Assembly (NCBI GenBank): GCA_902806275.1
Contig: CADCVY010000065.1
Location: 1 to 53,930, forward strand
Direction: 5' to 3'
From: an uncultured Sphingomonas sp.
GTDB lineage: Bacteria > Pseudomonadota > Alphaproteobacteria > Sphingomonadales > Sphingomonadaceae
DNA: 53,930 nucleotides
Shown: positions 1,769-28,977 of the stretch, piece after piece
How positions within the stretch are numbered: the stretch's first letter is position 1
How the letters are laid out: every line of letters begins with the position of its first letter
Notes under the pieces: model-generated
Database searches by the model: none
Seen by the model: only the letters and a program-made list of their open reading frames with translations
Told to the model about the DNA's origin: nothing
Made by a program: the position numbers and the translations under genes

Positions 1769-2611
1769 TCAGGACGCGGGTTCCGGGATATGCTTGCCGA
1801 TCCGCCACTGGTCGCCTTCCCGAACGAAGCGCTGGGCGTCCGCTGGCGCGTACGCCTCGCCGGTCCAGCGTTCGATGGTCACGGTCACGCGGTCACCCTC
1901 GATCTCGATGCGGTTGAAACTCTGCTCCTCGTCGCGCAGGCGGATCGACGTCGCCGTTCCTGCCTGGACGACCAGCGCAGACCCGGCGCGGGTGACGAGA
2001 TCGCGCGCATCCTGGACCGAAGCGCGGTGATTGTGCCCGGCCAGCAGCATGTCGACGCCGGCGTCACCGACGGCATCCAGCGCCAGCTCATGCCGGCCGA
2101 CCGCCTTGCCAAGCTCGGGACCGTCGCCGACTGGGAGTGCAAACAAGGGGTGGTGGGTGACAAGAACGCGGAAGGTGCCGGCATCGGTGCGCGCGAAGGT
2201 CTCCCGGATTTGCTCCATCTGCTCGTGGCTGATCCGCCCGTCGCTGAAAGTGAAGGAACGGGCGGTGTTAATGCCCAGCACGGCAACACCGGGCAGCTCA
2301 TGGTAGGGGCACAAGGTGTCGTCGACGAACCTTTGGTAGCGGGTCAGCGGCGACAGGAAGCGGCGCAGGACGTCGTACAGCGGGATGTCGTGATTGCCCG
2401 GTATCGCCAGCACTTCGTGGCCCGCGTCGCGCAGCCCGGCAAGAAACTCACAGGCCTGCTCGAACTGCTCGGTCCGGGCGCGCTGAGTAAAATCGCCGCT
2501 GATGACGACGAGGTCCGGCTGCTCGCGGTCGACGCGCTCGCGCACCGCGGCCACCAGCCGCTCGTCATGGGCGCCGAAATGGAGGTCAGACAGTTGAACA
2601 AGGCGAGCCAT
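1769..2611 (-). CDS. Calcineurin-like metallophosphoesterase
   Basis: The 280-aa cytosolic protein carries the full metallophosphoesterase signature: LSDLHFG at residues 6-12, ISGDFTQ (GD motif), IPGNHD (GNHD motif), a VLVTHHP histidine pair and LLAGHNH near residue 195. These residues bind the two metals. It resembles the CpdA/Icc branch (3',5'-cyclic nucleotide phosphodiesterase-like), but cAMP specificity cannot be told from the motifs alone. The start ATG gives the conserved first strand MARLVQLSD. It lies 46 nt downstream of the M3 peptidase and 38 nt upstream of nadC, so the three may be cotranscribed. Confidence 0.9.
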   Translation of the reverse strand: MARLVQLSDLHFGAHDERLVAAVRERVDREQPDLVVISGDFTQRARTEQFEQACEFLAGLRDAGHEVLAIPGNHDIPLYDVLRRFLSPLTRYQRFVDDTLCPYHELPGVAVLGINTARSFTFSDGRISHEQMEQIRETFARTDAGTFRVLVTHHPLFALPVGDGPELGKAVGRHELALDAVGDAGVDMLLAGHNHRASVQDARDLVTRAGSALVVQAGTATSIRLRDEEQSFNRIEIEGDRVTVTIERWTGEAYAPADAQRFVREGDQWRIGKHIPEPAS

Positions 2612-2657
2612 GGCACGAGAACGCGCCTTGGCTCGCCGGGTTCACCTCGGTCTGCGC

Positions 2658-4880
2658 TTATTGGCCACGCTCGCCCTTGGTGACGTCGTTGACCGGGGCC
2701 GCTGCCGGCGCTGCCGGCACTGCTCCGCCGACCGGGAAGCCGCGGCGCTTCAGCAGCGCGTTGACGTCCGGATCGCGGCCGCGGAACTGGCGATAGGCCT
2801 CGGCGCGGTCGGTCTCGTTGCCCGTCTCGAGCAAAGTGGTCCGGAAGCGATCGGCAGTCGCCTTGTCGAACGGATTGCCGGTCTCCTCGAACGCCGCCCA
2901 AGTGTCCGCGTCCATCGTCTCCGACCACAGGTAAGAGTAATAGCCCGCGGAGTAAGCATCGGACGAGAACAGGTGGCCGAACTGCGGCAGACGGTGACGC
3001 ATCACCATCTCGCGCGGCATCCCAAGCTCCGCCAGCGTCACCCGCTCGAACGCGTCCGGATCGGTCACGCCATTGGGGTTAAGGTGGAGCTTCATGTCGA
3101 CCAGCGCCGATGACAGATATTCGACGGTCGCAAAGCCTTGGTTGAACGTGTCCGCCCGCTTGATCTTGTCGACCAGAGCGGTAGGCATCGGCTGACCCGT
3201 CTTGTAGTGCTTGGCGAAGCGCTCGAGCACCGGCCGCGTCAACAGCCAATTCTCGTTCACCTGGCTGGGATACTCCACGAAGTCGCGCTGCGCGCCGCCG
3301 AACGACGGGTAGTTCACGTCGGCCAGCAGGTAATGGATCGCGTGGCCAAACTCGTGGAACAAAGTCGACGCGTCGTCGAGGCTGATCAGCACCGGCTGGC
3401 CCGCGGCCGGCTTGGTGAAGTTGTTGTTGTTCGAGGCCAGCACGATGTCGTCGCCGAGCAGGCGGGCGCGGCTGCGGTAGGTGTTCATCCACGCACCCGA
3501 GCGCTTGCCCTCGCGAGCATAGGTGTCGAGGTAGAACAGGCCGGTGACCTTGCCGTTGCGGCTGACCTCGAAGGTGCGGACGTCGGGATGGAAGACCGGC
3601 ACCTGTCCGGTGTTCTCCTTGAACTGCAGGCCGTAGAGCTGGCCCGCCGACCAGAACATGCCGTTCACCAGGTTCGACAGCTCGAAATATGGTTTGATCT
3701 CGTCTTCGCTTAGATCGTACTTCGCCTTGCGGACCTTCTCCTGATAGTAGCGGAAGTCCCACGGCTCGATCTGGGTGATGCCGTCCTTGCGCGCGATCGC
3801 CAACTGGTCGGCGACCTCCTCGTTCACGCGCGCGACCGCTGCCGGCCACACGCGCATCATCAGGTCCATCGCGCGCTCGGGCGACTTGGCCATCGTGTCC
3901 TGCATCCGCCAGTGCGCATGCGTGGGGTAGCCGAGCAGGCGGGCGCGATCGGCGCGGAGCTTCAGGATCTGGCTGATGATCGCGTTGTTGTCGGTCTTGC
4001 CGGCGTTATCGCCGCGGTTGACGAACGCGGTCCACACCCGCTTCCGGAGGTCACGGTTATCGGCGAACGTCAGGATCGGCTCGACTGCTGAGCGGGTGTT
4101 GCGGATCCCGTAAGTCCCGGGCGGCAGACCCTTTTCCTTGGCGGCCGCGAGCGCCGCATCCTTTACGTCCTGCTGCACGCCCTTCATCTCCGCGGCATTG
4201 GCCGCGGTGATGGTGCCTTCATCGGCCAACAGGCGTGAGTTGAACTCGGAGAATGCCGAGGCGAGCTGCTGGTTGATCTGCGTCAGCTGCTGCTTCTGCT
4301 GCGGGTTGAGCTTGGCGCCGTTGCGCACCATCGCTTCGTAGCTGCGCTCCAGCAGGCGCATCTGCTTGGCGTCGAGGCCAAGCGAGTTCCGCTTATTGTA
4401 CAGCGTTTCCACCCGCCGGAAGAGCTTGGGATTGAGCGTGATCTCGTCGTATGCGGCCGACAGTTTGGGCGACCATTCCTTTTCGATCGCTTGAATTTCC
4501 GGCGTCGACAGATTGTCGGTGTAAACGCCGAAGATGGCCTGGACTCGGTTGAGCCGCTGGCCCGCCTTTTCGCCGGCTTCGATCGTGTTGGCGAACGTCG
4601 GGGCAGCGCGATTGTTGGCGATTGCCTCATATTCGCGGAGTTGCTCGTCGATACCGACCTGCAGCGCCTGCGGGAACTGCGCCGGCGTGACCTTGTCCCA
4701 CGGCGGAACGCCTTCGTACGGGCCGGTCCAGTCGGCCAGAAGCACGTTATTGGAGGGCGCTGCCTGCGCGGCCGCTGCGGTCATGGTCTGCACCTTGGTT
4801 GGAACCGGCTCGGCGCCCAACGCCGTCGCTGCAACGCCGGAAAGCGCCAGCGCGCTTCCAGCCAATAGAATTTGTTTCAT
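2658..4880 (-). CDS. Secreted M3-family zinc metallopeptidase (peptidyl-dipeptidase Dcp/oligopeptidase-like)
   Basis: The product is 740 aa from an ATG at 4880, chosen because MKQILLAGSALALSGVAATALGA is a clean signal peptide and AGGGAT precedes it. A longer in-frame start exists but adds no signal peptide. The thermolysin-type HEFGH is at residues 509-513 and the third zinc ligand is probably E536. The whole chain matches the M3 fold, which hydrolyses oligopeptides and, for Dcp, releases C-terminal dipeptides. The C-terminus ends in an Ala/Pro-rich tail. Export to the periplasm is inferred. An exact inverted repeat, GTAACGA-GA-TCGTTAC, sits about 41 nt upstream and could be an operator. Confidence 0.93.
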   Translation of the reverse strand: MKQILLAGSALALSGVAATALGAEPVPTKVQTMTAAAAQAAPSNNVLLADWTGPYEGVPPWDKVTPAQFPQALQVGIDEQLREYEAIANNRAAPTFANTIEAGEKAGQRLNRVQAIFGVYTDNLSTPEIQAIEKEWSPKLSAAYDEITLNPKLFRRVETLYNKRNSLGLDAKQMRLLERSYEAMVRNGAKLNPQQKQQLTQINQQLASAFSEFNSRLLADEGTITAANAAEMKGVQQDVKDAALAAAKEKGLPPGTYGIRNTRSAVEPILTFADNRDLRKRVWTAFVNRGDNAGKTDNNAIISQILKLRADRARLLGYPTHAHWRMQDTMAKSPERAMDLMMRVWPAAVARVNEEVADQLAIARKDGITQIEPWDFRYYQEKVRKAKYDLSEDEIKPYFELSNLVNGMFWSAGQLYGLQFKENTGQVPVFHPDVRTFEVSRNGKVTGLFYLDTYAREGKRSGAWMNTYRSRARLLGDDIVLASNNNNFTKPAAGQPVLISLDDASTLFHEFGHAIHYLLADVNYPSFGGAQRDFVEYPSQVNENWLLTRPVLERFAKHYKTGQPMPTALVDKIKRADTFNQGFATVEYLSSALVDMKLHLNPNGVTDPDAFERVTLAELGMPREMVMRHRLPQFGHLFSSDAYSAGYYSYLWSETMDADTWAAFEETGNPFDKATADRFRTTLLETGNETDRAEAYRQFRGRDPDVNALLKRRGFPVGGAVPAAPAAAPVNDVTKGERGQ

Positions 4881-4920
4881 GGAATATCCCTGCAAACTGC
4901 TGTGTCTCCGGCGCGACTGC

Positions 4921-4936
4921 GTAACGAGATCGTTAC
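4921..4936. promoter_or_regulatory. Inverted repeat, candidate operator of the M3 peptidase
   Basis: A perfect 7-bp inverted repeat, GTAACGA-GA-TCGTTAC, lies 41-56 nt upstream of the peptidase start codon in a 126-nt intergenic space. Position and symmetry fit a dimeric repressor or activator site. No cognate regulator gene is adjacent. Confidence 0.4.
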
Positions 4937-5006
4937 ATGCCGCAAGCCGATGTTCGATGAACGGGCGACTAACATAGGACAGGTGAACGCCCAATGACGC
5001 CAGCAG

Positions 5007-5522
5007 CTAAAAGCCGAGGAACATCAGCAGCTTGACGTCCACGGCGAAACCTTCCGCCCGCTTCCTTTCAAGGAACGCCGGAATGTCGGGCCGCGCAACG
5101 AGATGCACATTGATATCCTCATGCTCGTCGCCGCCGCCGGCCCCGATCCGCCGCAGCCCGTGCGCGCGCACGAGCGTGAAGCTTTCCGCCAGCATGCCCG
5201 GTGAGGCATGGAACTCCCCGAGGCGCTCGATCCGCTCGGCGGTGAAGCCGGTTTCCTCCTCCAGCTCCTTGACCGCGGTGCTCTCAACGGTGGCGTTCAG
5301 GTCTTCGTCACCGATCAGCCCGGCCGGAAGCTCGACGCTCCGTCCGCCCACCGGCACGCGCGGCTGGTCGACCAGGACCACTTTGCCTTCATATTCCGCC
5401 ACGACCGCAACCGCACGGATGTCGTTGGCCCGGCTGGCATATTCCCACTGCCCGCGCTTGATCACGCGAACGTACTTGCCCGACCACATCACCTCCGGCG
5501 GAGGCAACTCGTCCAGCTTCAC
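5007..5522 (-). CDS. NUDIX hydrolase, ADP-ribose pyrophosphatase-like
   Basis: The protein has 171 aa. The Nudix region is GDEDLNATVESTAVKELEEE followed by TGF, so the catalytic EExE core is present. The helix Arg is Lys, and the first Glu of the box (GX5E) is Ala. VELPAGLIGDE immediately before it is typical of ADP-ribose/ADP-sugar pyrophosphatases, which hydrolyse ADP-ribose to AMP and ribose-5-phosphate. The start overlaps the stop of the upstream TPM gene by 4 nt (ATGA), making it the last gene of a lemA-TPM-TPM-Nudix operon. Substrate is inferred from the family. Confidence 0.9.
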   Translation of the reverse strand: MKLDELPPPEVMWSGKYVRVIKRGQWEYASRANDIRAVAVVAEYEGKVVLVDQPRVPVGGRSVELPAGLIGDEDLNATVESTAVKELEEETGFTAERIERLGEFHASPGMLAESFTLVRAHGLRRIGAGGGDEHEDINVHLVARPDIPAFLERKRAEGFAVDVKLLMFLGF

Positions 5523-6196
5523 AGCTCGATCAGCTTGTCGGGGATTTCGTTACTGTCGTCGGCCGAGCGCGGGAAGTGCTGGGCAAGCACCGATCCGACC
5601 TGCTCGATGGCCGCCACCATGCCCGCGGCAATCCGCCCCTGCTTCACTTCGGCGATCAGCGCGCCCATCGCTTCGCCCCAAGTGGAATCGTCGGTGACTT
5701 TCAGGATCGCCTCGTCGGCGACGATTTCGGCACGGTGTTCGGCCATCGAAAGGTAGATGAGGATGCCGGTGCGGCCGACCGTTCGCCGCTCCGCGGCAGC
5801 CCTGAACACGGTGATCGCGCGGCGGCGCACGCGGCGAGTCTTGGTCGCGCCAGGCGTTAGCATCAGCCGCAAGGGCATGTAGCGCAGCATCAGCAGCACC
5901 GCGGTGAACTTGGCAGTCGCCAACACGAGCAGCAGCGTCAGCAACTCGCGCAAGCTCGGCTCGGGCCGCCAGCCGCCGAGGAATAGGTCGAACCAGAACC
6001 GCAGCACATCCGGCGCGGCGGCGAAGATGGCCAGTGTCCCGATCAGCACCAGCACGGCCCAATGCAGGGCCACGTCGTGATAGGGATCGCTGAGCTCGGT
6101 CGTGACGGCAACGATCTCGCCGTCGGACTGCCGCTCGGCATCGGCGATTGCGGCAGAAACCTGGCGGTGATCGTCGTGGGTGAGCGCGGTCACCAT
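5519..6196 (-). CDS. TPM-domain membrane protein (TLP18.3/Psb32-like)
   Basis: The 225-aa protein starts with a TPM-type segment (DAERQSDGEIVAVT), followed by two hydrophobic spans at about residues 42-65 (HWAVLVLIGTLAIFAA) and 88-108 (LTLLLVLATAKFTAVLLML). The second TPM half follows, with RRAITVFRAAAERRTVGRTG and ILIYLSMAEHRAEIVADEAI. That split arrangement matches the short TPM proteins that accompany LemA in many proteobacteria. Their molecular role is not established; membrane-associated assembly or stress functions have been proposed. The start (ATGGTGA) overlaps the previous TPM gene by 7 nt. Confidence 0.88.
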   Translation of the reverse strand: MVTALTHDDHRQVSAAIADAERQSDGEIVAVTTELSDPYHDVALHWAVLVLIGTLAIFAAAPDVLRFWFDLFLGGWRPEPSLRELLTLLLVLATAKFTAVLLMLRYMPLRLMLTPGATKTRRVRRRAITVFRAAAERRTVGRTGILIYLSMAEHRAEIVADEAILKVTDDSTWGEAMGALIAEVKQGRIAAGMVAAIEQVGSVLAQHFPRSADDSNEIPDKLIEL

Positions 6197-26020: not shown

Positions 26021-26848
26021 TCAGTGCGCTGCAATTGCAGGGATCGGCCGGCGGTGCGCCAAAGCGGGAATGCGCGACCGGACGTCTGATATCCGCGCCA
26101 GGTCGATGTCGGCGAACCCAACGCCGACCTCATCGGCCATGTCGAGCAGGACTTCGCCCCAGGGATCGACCACCAGCGAGTGGCCGAACGTGCGGCGGCC
26201 GTCCTCATGCCGGCCAACCTGCGCCGCAGCGACGACGAACAGGCCCGCCTCGATCGCGCGTGCGCGCAGCAGGATGTGCCAGTGCGCCCGCCCGGTGGGC
26301 ACGGTGAACGCTGCCGGAACCGCGATCACGTCCGAGTCGGCCTCGGCGATGCGCGCGAACAGGCCGGGAAACCGCAGGTCGTAGCAGATGGTGAGCCCGA
26401 GCTTGCCAACCGGCGTGCCGTTGACCAGCACCGGACCTTCGCCCCGCTGGTAGGTCGCGGACTCGCGCCAGCTTTCGCCGGTCGGCAGGTCGACGTCGAA
26501 CAGGTGGATCTTGTCGTACCGGCCGCGGATTTCACCCGTGCGATCGATCACATAGCCGCGGTTGGCAACCTTGCCGTCGCCGACCAGTACCGCAAGCGAC
26601 CCGATATGCAGCCAGATGCCGTGGTCGCGCGCGGCCGCGCGGCAGGCGGCAAGCACCTGGTCCTCGTCCTCGGGCCGCAGATTGCCGGCGGCGCGCTGCG
26701 AGTCGCGGTCGAGCAGGCCCGACATCTCAGGCGTGAACAGCATCGCTGCCCCGCCGCCGGCGGCGGCGGCGATCGCGCCAACCAGGCTTTGCGCATTGGC
26801 CTCCGGATTGATGCCGGTATTCGACTGGAACAGGGCGATCCGGGTCAT
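26021..26848 (-). CDS. Carbon-nitrogen hydrolase (nitrilase superfamily)
   Basis: The ATG at 26848 overlaps the grxC stop (ATGA) and gives 275 aa. The catalytic triad is visible: E41 in LFTPEMSG, K113 in YDKIHLFDVDLP, and C155 in LTICYDLRFPGLF. YDLRFP and the HWHILLRARAIE segment fit the Nit1/Nit2-like branch (omega-amidase or deaminated glutathione amidase). The comF-grxC-nitrilase order is a recurrent alphaproteobacterial arrangement and hints at repair of damaged thiol or glutathione metabolites. That function is inferred. Confidence 0.92.
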   Translation of the reverse strand: MTRIALFQSNTGINPEANAQSLVGAIAAAAGGGAAMLFTPEMSGLLDRDSQRAAGNLRPEDEDQVLAACRAAARDHGIWLHIGSLAVLVGDGKVANRGYVIDRTGEIRGRYDKIHLFDVDLPTGESWRESATYQRGEGPVLVNGTPVGKLGLTICYDLRFPGLFARIAEADSDVIAVPAAFTVPTGRAHWHILLRARAIEAGLFVVAAAQVGRHEDGRRTFGHSLVVDPWGEVLLDMADEVGVGFADIDLARISDVRSRIPALAHRRPIPAIAAH

Positions 26849-27102
26849 GCCGCAATCAGTTCGTCCAGCCGTCCGGCGCGTTCGAGAGCGAACAGATCGT
26901 CGCATCCGCCGACGTGCCGGTCGCCGATGAAGATCTGCGGCACCGTCGTGCGGCCGCCCGCACGCTGGATCATCGTTTGCCGTTCCGGCCCGCTCCAGTC
27001 GATCGGGATGCGCTTGTACTCGACGCCCTTGCTGTCGAGCAGCGCCTGCGCGCGCCAGCAATATGGGCAGGTGGACTTGGTGTAGATTTCGATAGTCGGC
27101 AC
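26845..27102 (-). CDS. grxC: Glutaredoxin 3, GrxC
   Basis: The 85-aa protein starts with a GTG at 27102 (AAGGA 7 nt upstream). The active site CPYC is at residues 12-15. TTVPQIFIGDRHVGGCDDLF holds the cis-Pro and the glutathione-binding GGCDDL. Length and sequence are standard for monothiol/dithiol GrxC, which reduces protein disulfides and glutathione mixed disulfides in the cytosol. It follows comF by 32 nt and overlaps the nitrilase gene by 4 nt. Confidence 0.97.
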   Translation of the reverse strand: MPTIEIYTKSTCPYCWRAQALLDSKGVEYKRIPIDWSGPERQTMIQRAGGRTTVPQIFIGDRHVGGCDDLFALERAGRLDELIAA

Positions 27103-27134: not shown

Positions 27135-27858
27135 TTAACGCATCAACAGGGCAGGACGCACCACACGGGCCCAGCTGATCAGCTCGACCCGTGCCGCGCC
27201 CGCCTTGCGCAGCGTTCGGGCGCAGGCTTGGCCGTGCTACCGGTGGTCAGCACATCGTCGATCAGGATGATCGTCCTTCCCGCAATCCGTTGCTTGTCCC
27301 CGACCACGAATGCGCCCGCCACTGCTTCCCGCCGCTGCAGTGGGCTCATGCCTTTGAGCGGCGGCGTGCGGCGGGTACGCCGGAGGACGAACGGGTCGTC
27401 GGCAATGCGCAGGCGGCGCGACAATTCGCGGGCGACCAACGCTGACTGGTTGAACCCGCGCCACCACAGCCGCGACCGGTGCAGCGGCACCGGCACAAGC
27501 AGGCACTCGCCTTGCCCGGTGTCGATCAGTGGTGCCATGGTCCGGGCCAGCGCGACCTTGCGGCCGTATTTGAGCCGAATGGCAACGCCGCGCGACAGAT
27601 CGTCGTAGGCGACCGCTGCCCGCGTGCGGTCGATCCGCGGCGGCAGCGCCAGACAGGCGCCGCGTTCCTCCGCTTCGGTGCGTGCAGCGGCAACCCGCAA
27701 GTGAGACAACCGCCCTCCCCGAGGAACTCGACCTGCTTCCAGCATTCAGTGCAGAAGCTGTGCAGGTCGGCGACGATGAGGCCGCAGCCGGCGCAGCGGG
27801 GCGGCAGGACGAAGTCCAACGCCACTTGGGCAAATGTGTTCAGCGCCTGTCGCACCAT
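27135..27858 (-). pseudogene. comF: ComF-family phosphoribosyltransferase, disrupted by two single-base deletions
   Basis: Three reading frames together give one ComF. The first (from ATG 27858) has the zinc-like segment LPPRCAGCGLIVADLHSFCT, CW and CLTCGLPL. The second has CLALPPRIDRTRAAVAYDDL, LKYGRKVALARTMAPL, LVPVPLHRSRLWWRGFNQSA and the PRPP loop IILIDDVLTTGSTA. The third has ARTLRKAGAARVELISWARV and ends at TAA 27135. The breaks lie near 27660-27695 and 27222-27233. The span is 724 nt; adding two bases gives 242 codons, the normal ComF length. Each break needs one missing base (AAGCCTGC where AAGGCCTGC restores the frame). It is either a young pseudogene or a sequencing/assembly artefact. 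ComF is linked to DNA uptake. Confidence 0.85.
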
Positions 27859-27900
27859 CCGCTGGTTGTCGCTTGCGGTTCGGCGTCGCACAAGCGGCGA

Positions 27901-28707
27901 ATGGCCGAGCTGTTCGACAATCACCTGCGCGCCACGCGGCGGGACCGCGCGGCAAGCACAGGGTTCGAGCTGTTCCTGCTCGAGCGCGCCTTCAAAGACT
28001 GCATGGAACGTCTCGAGATCGTCCAGCGGACGTTTGCCCGCGCGCTGCTGATCGGCTGCCCCGACCCTCGCTGGCTGGCGGTGTTGCGCACCAGCGTCGA
28101 CGCGGTGGACGCCTGTGACCCGGGGCACGTCTTCGCCCAGGCGGTAGGTGGCCTTCAGGTCGTCGAGGATCGGTGGAGCCCGCCCGCCGCCGCATACGAC
28201 CTCGTCCTTGCCATCGGCACCCTCGACACCGTCAACGATCTGCCGGGAACGTTTCGCGCCGTCCGGCGGACACTCGCGCCCGACCGCCTGTTCATCGGCG
28301 CAATGTCAGGTGGCGAGACGGTGCCGCAGCTGCGCGGAGCCATGCGCGCTGCCGACCAGATTGCGGGTGAAGCCCTGCCGCACGTCCATCCCCGGATCGA
28401 GGCGGCCGCCTTGGCTCCGCTGCTTTCGGCGGCTGGGTTCGCGATGCCGGTCGTCGACGTCGACCGGGCGCAGGTCGCGTACCGATCGTTTGACCGGCTG
28501 GTGGCGGATCTGCGCGCAATGGCAGCGACCAACGTGCTGGCGGCGCGTCCCCGCCGGCCGCTGTCCCGTGCCGCTTGGCAGGCCGCAGCCGAAAGCTTCG
28601 CGGCTGCCGGTGATGGAGAGCGCACGGTAGAGACGTTCGAAACCCTGCACTTCGCCGCCTGGACTCCTGCGGGCGCCCGAGGGAAAACAGCAATGACGCG
28701 CGCTTAA
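27901..28707 (+). CDS. SAM methyltransferase-fold protein, NDUFAF5/BioC-like
   Basis: From ATG 27901 the product is 268 aa. FDNHLRATRRDRAASTGFEL, FLLERAFKDCMERLEIVQRT, AYDLVLAIGTLDTVNDLPGT and LFIGAMSGGETVPQLRGAMR are the pattern of the NDUFAF5-like family (arginine hydroxylation in complex I assembly) rather than BioC. The usual glycine-rich SAM motif I is replaced by ALLIGCPDP, so classic methyl transfer is doubtful. It is divergent from comF with only 42 nt between start codons, a conserved alphaproteobacterial neighbourhood. Confidence 0.82.
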   Translation: MAELFDNHLRATRRDRAASTGFELFLLERAFKDCMERLEIVQRTFARALLIGCPDPRWLAVLRTSVDAVDACDPGHVFAQAVGGLQVVEDRWSPPAAAYDLVLAIGTLDTVNDLPGTFRAVRRTLAPDRLFIGAMSGGETVPQLRGAMRAADQIAGEALPHVHPRIEAAALAPLLSAAGFAMPVVDVDRAQVAYRSFDRLVADLRAMAATNVLAARPRRPLSRAAWQAAAESFAAAGDGERTVETFETLHFAAWTPAGARGKTAMTRA

Positions 28708-28782
28708 CCGCGTTGCCGGTAAGAGTTGTTAACTGAACAGCCGTTAGACCGGCACGGTGGACGTGGATCAGGGGAGGGTGGC

Positions 28783-28977
28783 GTGAGCGCTATCCGGTTG
28801 AACTTGCGCGAGCTCGGCGTAGATACGCGCGGAGCGACTGCGATCGAATATGGACTCATCGCGGCACTGATCGCCGTCGCGTGCATCGGTGGGCTGCAAG
28901 GGCTTGGCGGCGGCTCCAAGGGGATGTGGAGCAAGCTCAGCAATATCGTCGAGGACCCGTCTAAGGCGAGAACCTAG
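28783..28977 (+). CDS. Flp-family type IVb pilin, orphan
   Basis: A GTG at 28783 (GGAGG 7 nt upstream) gives a 64-aa prepilin. The leader SAIRLNLRELGVDTRG precedes the type IVb processing site G|ATAIEYGLIAALIAVACI, with the conserved Glu at mature position 5. The mature protein is about 47 aa. It polymerises into Flp/Tad pili after cleavage by a CpaA/TadV peptidase. No tad/cpa gene is present in the window, so the pilin is detached from its secretion system. Its stop codon overlaps the stop of the convergent M48 gene (CTAG). Confidence 0.88.
   Translation: MSAIRLNLRELGVDTRGATAIEYGLIAALIAVACIGGLQGLGGGSKGMWSKLSNIVEDPSKART

Follow-up and report, generated by a model that had tools for sequence, protein, structure and literature searches.

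ComFC of Helicobacter pylori operates at the same step of DNA transport as ComEC and links this transport to recombination. The zinc-finger cysteines of ComFC are required for transformation as well as for membrane association (PMC9005727). Single-stranded DNA passes through the ComEC channel; DprA then shields the strand and recruits RecA, and the branch-migration helicase ComM aids recombination over long heterologous stretches (PMC9005727, PMC11472951).

The comF gene analysed here resembles the ComF/ComFC family (TIGR00201; H. pylori ComFC, PMC9005727) in that a region matching the zinc ribbon profile is followed by a phosphoribosyltransferase domain with a PRPP motif, and its length is typical of the family when all three of its reading frames are counted. 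Unlike the members of this family, it is frame-broken twice, one of its zinc ligands is replaced, and 12 bases have been lost; no full protein can be made from it. We consider it very likely that this comF is a true and fairly young pseudogene and that the lineage has lost natural transformation. Judged from its genome sequence, the organism would be non-transformable.

The window is the entire contig C65 (53,930 nucleotides). The draft genome to which it belongs is 72% complete and comprises 114 contigs with a total of 1.62 Mb. The relatives are sphingomonads, and the nearest named matches are Sphingomonas drafts and isolates, including S. hankyongi and S. cremea. The comparison set for the genus consisted of 71 genomes (designated by G numbers below), and the 53 good ones among them were used for an association test.

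Structure of the comF locus

The features of the locus are listed in Table 1. A single continuous open frame of ~240 codons is absent, as the gene is distributed over three frames. According to the three-frame translation, the N-terminal piece starts with an ATG at 27858 and stays in one frame to ~27680; it is 63-67% identical to the intact ComF of the closest relatives. The zinc ribbon profile PF18912 matches this piece, and one conserved cysteine of the ribbon is an arginine. Both the codon for this arginine and the 12-base loss fall inside the middle frame, in which the PRPP motif (IILIDDVLTTGSTA) is intact. The C-terminal piece provides the last ~30 residues (27230-27138) and is followed by the stop codon (27137-27135). 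ComF proteins from several intact relatives are collinear with the locus across both frameshift junctions.

Table 1. Features of the comF locus and of its neighbours (positions in the window)
Feature	Position	Strand	Evidence or remark
comF	27858-27135	-	three frames, two one-base shifts
comF N-terminal remnant, double zinc ribbon, frame 1	27679..27858	-	PF18912 DZR_2 E=1.8e-12
First one-base frameshift	~27679..27690	-	homology moves from frame -3 to -2
Zinc-ligand Cys to Arg	27662..27664	-	relatives keep Cys; alignment and leave-one-out conservation
12-base in-frame loss, conserved four-residue 'ARYM'-type stretch gone	27538..27539	-	alignment
comF middle remnant, phosphoribosyltransferase domain, frame 2	27203..27679	-	TIGR00201 E=2.6e-17 and PF00156 E=3e-4 (scores below the curated cut-offs, as are the TIGR00201 scores of intact relatives); NF008616 E=2.3e-23
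Second one-base frameshift	27227..27231	-	alignment of relatives moves from frame -2 to -1
comF C-terminal remnant and stop, frame 3	27135..27230	-	64-81% identity to intact ComF C-termini
Glutaredoxin 3 gene, intact	26845..27102	-	TIGR02181 above cut-off; downstream of comF in relatives
Carbon-nitrogen hydrolase (nitrilase family) gene, intact	26021..26854	-	PF00795 E=6e-51
BioC-like methyltransferase gene, intact, divergent	27898..28707	+	PF13489 E=1.6e-9; locus anchor

An initial annotation, made from the sequence alone, had described comF as distributed over three frames because of two one-base shifts, and translations, profiles and the alignments of relatives agree with it in both the position and the number of these shifts. 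The restored length which it gave is also correct, because the gene covers 724 bases and two missing bases restore 242 codons, stop codon included. The neighbours are intact as described: comF is the only one among the ~49 called genes of the window for which homologues align in two frames. Relatives carrying the same split had been named as a sign of a true variant; comF is in one open frame in nearly all of the 71 genus genomes, and the same split was found in none. What had gone unnoticed are the replaced cysteine, the 12-base in-frame loss and the damage in the remainder of the pathway.

The location of comF between the methyltransferase and glutaredoxin genes is the same in intact and in broken relatives. 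A Flp/Fap pilin gene (PF04964) is encoded close to comF (28726-28977, plus strand), and G049 seems to encode such a gene at the corresponding position.

Since the PRPP motif and a large part of the zinc ribbon have been preserved, each in its own frame, a functional product could conceivably arise by programmed frameshifting, or the frames could be expressed as individual subunits. We regard this as having practically no probability. The longest run near the first frameshift is 3 bases, neither junction has a run of at least 5 bases, and no relative shares the split. In addition, the gene lacks one zinc ligand and one conserved stretch, and its damage is paralleled by that of comEC, comM and dprA.

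The remaining sequence constraint was assessed by a leave-one-out count of near-invariant sites. Two such sites are violated in comF, compared to 0-9 in intact relatives, so that this test reveals no clear excess of amino-acid change. As constraint is not visibly relaxed, the decay appears to be recent.

Other transformation genes of the same genome

Damage to transformation genes is found on four separate contigs: C65 with comF, C1 with comEC, C51 with comM and C93 with dprA. When compared to intact relatives, comEC consists of four segments in alternating frames, which corresponds to three frameshifts. The comM gene has a frameshift near its end, an in-frame TAG, and an arginine in place of a Walker A glycine. 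In dprA, a TAG precedes the C-terminal domain near the gene end, and homology resumes behind it. These four genes carry point mutations and small indels, and no insertion was seen among their lesions. Matches to TIGR02515 (PilQ) were a mixture of several secretins and thus uninformative.

ComF-type phosphoribosyltransferases also occur outside known competent bacteria (GntX). This leaves room for a loss of comF alone for a reason specific to ComF, for example a redundant paralogue, with no loss of transformation involved. Such a scenario is hardly credible, however, because it is contradicted by the damage in comEC, comM and dprA; moreover, a second full ComF was not found in the draft genome (72% complete).

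Frame integrity of the assembly

The initial annotation had left two explanations side by side, a recent loss of DNA uptake and homopolymer errors in a long-read assembly. The former gains support from the damage in comEC, comM and dprA and from four genus genomes in which comF is broken and comEC is missing (see below), whereas the latter is not supported. Both shifts would then be base-calling or consensus mistakes and comF would be intact in the organism. In favour of such errors, the genome is a fragmented draft in 114 contigs, a likely error occurs at a contig edge (gltA), and some genomes of the genus are full of apparently false frameshifts.

Frame integrity was judged from a census of 132 gene loci (296 kb of the genome), which were compared to the proteins of a complete relative (G021, ~1.6 Mb) and to the local neighbourhoods of others. 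The census was built on gene calls, as antisense frames dominated a tblastn search that used every frame between two stops. While 129 of the 132 loci are frame-intact, the three frame-split ones are comF, comEC and comM, all from a single pathway. The best alignments contained internal stops only in comM, dprA, gltA (close to the end of a contig) and a C-terminus which is variable. If five genes out of the 132 are damaged, the probability that they include all four transformation genes is 4e-7, or 1e-5 when comF is left out because the case was found through it; contigs C51 and C93 were included in this count because of comM and dprA, and their other genes enlarge the denominator, but this choice does not account for the lesions in these two genes. 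The in-frame stop in gltA, which codes for citrate synthase (contig C1, bases 1-217), lies <60 bases from the contig end and is probably an assembly edge error.

An ab initio scan detected ~4 apparent frameshifts per 100 kb, compared to 2-8 in most relatives; its sensitivity was low (5/24 to 10/23 simulated shifts) and its results serve for the comparison of rates only. The frameshift rate thus matches that of finished relatives. G010 showed ~57 apparent frameshifts per 100 kb and resembles an uncorrected long-read assembly, so that claims of gene loss from this genome are unsafe.

Runs of a single base at the junctions do not exceed 3-4 bases. The fact that the damage is concentrated in one pathway and includes nonsense and missense mutations as well as in-frame deletions indicates that random assembly error is not the explanation. 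We thus consider a sequencing or assembly error very unlikely.

Transformation genes across the genus

Four near-complete genomes have a broken comF. In G024, G049 and G065, comF has been reduced to short remnants located between the methyltransferase and glutaredoxin genes, while comF of G054 is full-length with an in-frame TAG. None of the four has comEC, and their comM and dprA genes are either fragmentary or absent. The association between a broken comF and a missing comEC was significant in the 53 good genomes when shared ancestry is ignored (Fisher p=5e-5).

A full-length comF is retained in two genomes without comEC (G018, G061), from which it follows that comF is not lost immediately after comEC. 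In G001, G045, G023 and G085, comEC is frame-split and comF is open; the loss may be less advanced in these genomes, or there may be draft errors among them. Because G018 and G061 keep a full-length comF and the genomes with a split comEC an intact one, the gene content of these genomes suggests that comEC is usually lost before comF in this genus.

In a tree computed from two neighbouring proteins, which is weak and has low support near the genome described here, broken genomes are placed beside intact ones; for example, the intact G014 is the sister of G024 (support 97). As the lesions differ and intact sisters such as G014 exist, comF has been lost several times independently.

The comM gene of G064 (C3:670000-678500, locus 2490-5902) is interrupted by ~3.4 kb encoding an IS-type transposase that has a zinc ribbon, and the two comM halves of G009 are ~14 kb apart. 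Gene-transfer agents had been considered as a reason to keep comF; this was dropped, as the marker GTA_TIM (PF13547), the one marker used, is absent from all 71 genus genomes.

Discussion

Relaxed selection on a dead pathway is the simplest account of these observations. One step would have been lost first, probably the ComEC channel, after which imported single-stranded DNA would no longer reach the cytoplasm. With the channel gone, ComF, DprA and ComM would be without substrate; genes which act only on imported DNA would no longer be under purifying selection and would accumulate point mutations and small indels. The short comF remnants of other species may represent later stages of the same process.

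Alternatively, the loss could have been favoured by selection or brought about by mobile elements which benefit from a shutdown of transformation, and not by drift after selection was relaxed; this would dispute the cause of the loss and not its occurrence. The interrupted comM of G064 and the separated comM halves of G009 are in line with this, as is the inactivation of comM, comEC and comFA by mobile elements in other bacteria (PMC11472951, PMC4774983). The four genes described here, however, are damaged by point mutations and small indels, with no insertion, and we consider such a cause unlikely for them. We also give a low probability to a broader proposal: that the genus shuts down transformation repeatedly (in about six or more lineages among the 71 genomes), comEC being an early and comF a late loss, either because the shutdown is favoured (e.g., by mobile-element pressure) or because a second role of ComF delays its loss.

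With these findings, a single suspicious gene becomes a loss of DNA uptake at the level of the pathway, and a gene with two frameshifts in a draft assembly is not necessarily a mistake. Within one genus, transformation genes are found in all conditions, from intact through recently broken and remnant to absent, which allows one to test the order in which the machinery decays, whether ComF has any role besides transformation, and which ecological or mobile-element setting accompanies the loss.

Among the papers searched, none dealt with the loss of competence genes in this group. Comparable events have been described elsewhere. In Piscirickettsia salmonis, the gene for the DNA channel, comEC, is destroyed across a whole lineage, as is proposed here; there, the gene is broken by transposons and the other transformation genes are intact, whereas here comF, comM and dprA decay too, through point mutations and indels (PMC12955456). 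The repeated inactivation of comM and comFA among related strains of Acinetobacter, Streptococcus and Bacillus is similar in its recurrence (PMC11472951, PMC4774983). It differs in that mobile elements are responsible, while no insertion is present in the genome described here, and in that the losses reported here occur in several species of one genus and affect the whole DNA-processing set. The loss of transformation is thus a known kind of event, and it is the parallel and staged losses within one genus which are of interest.
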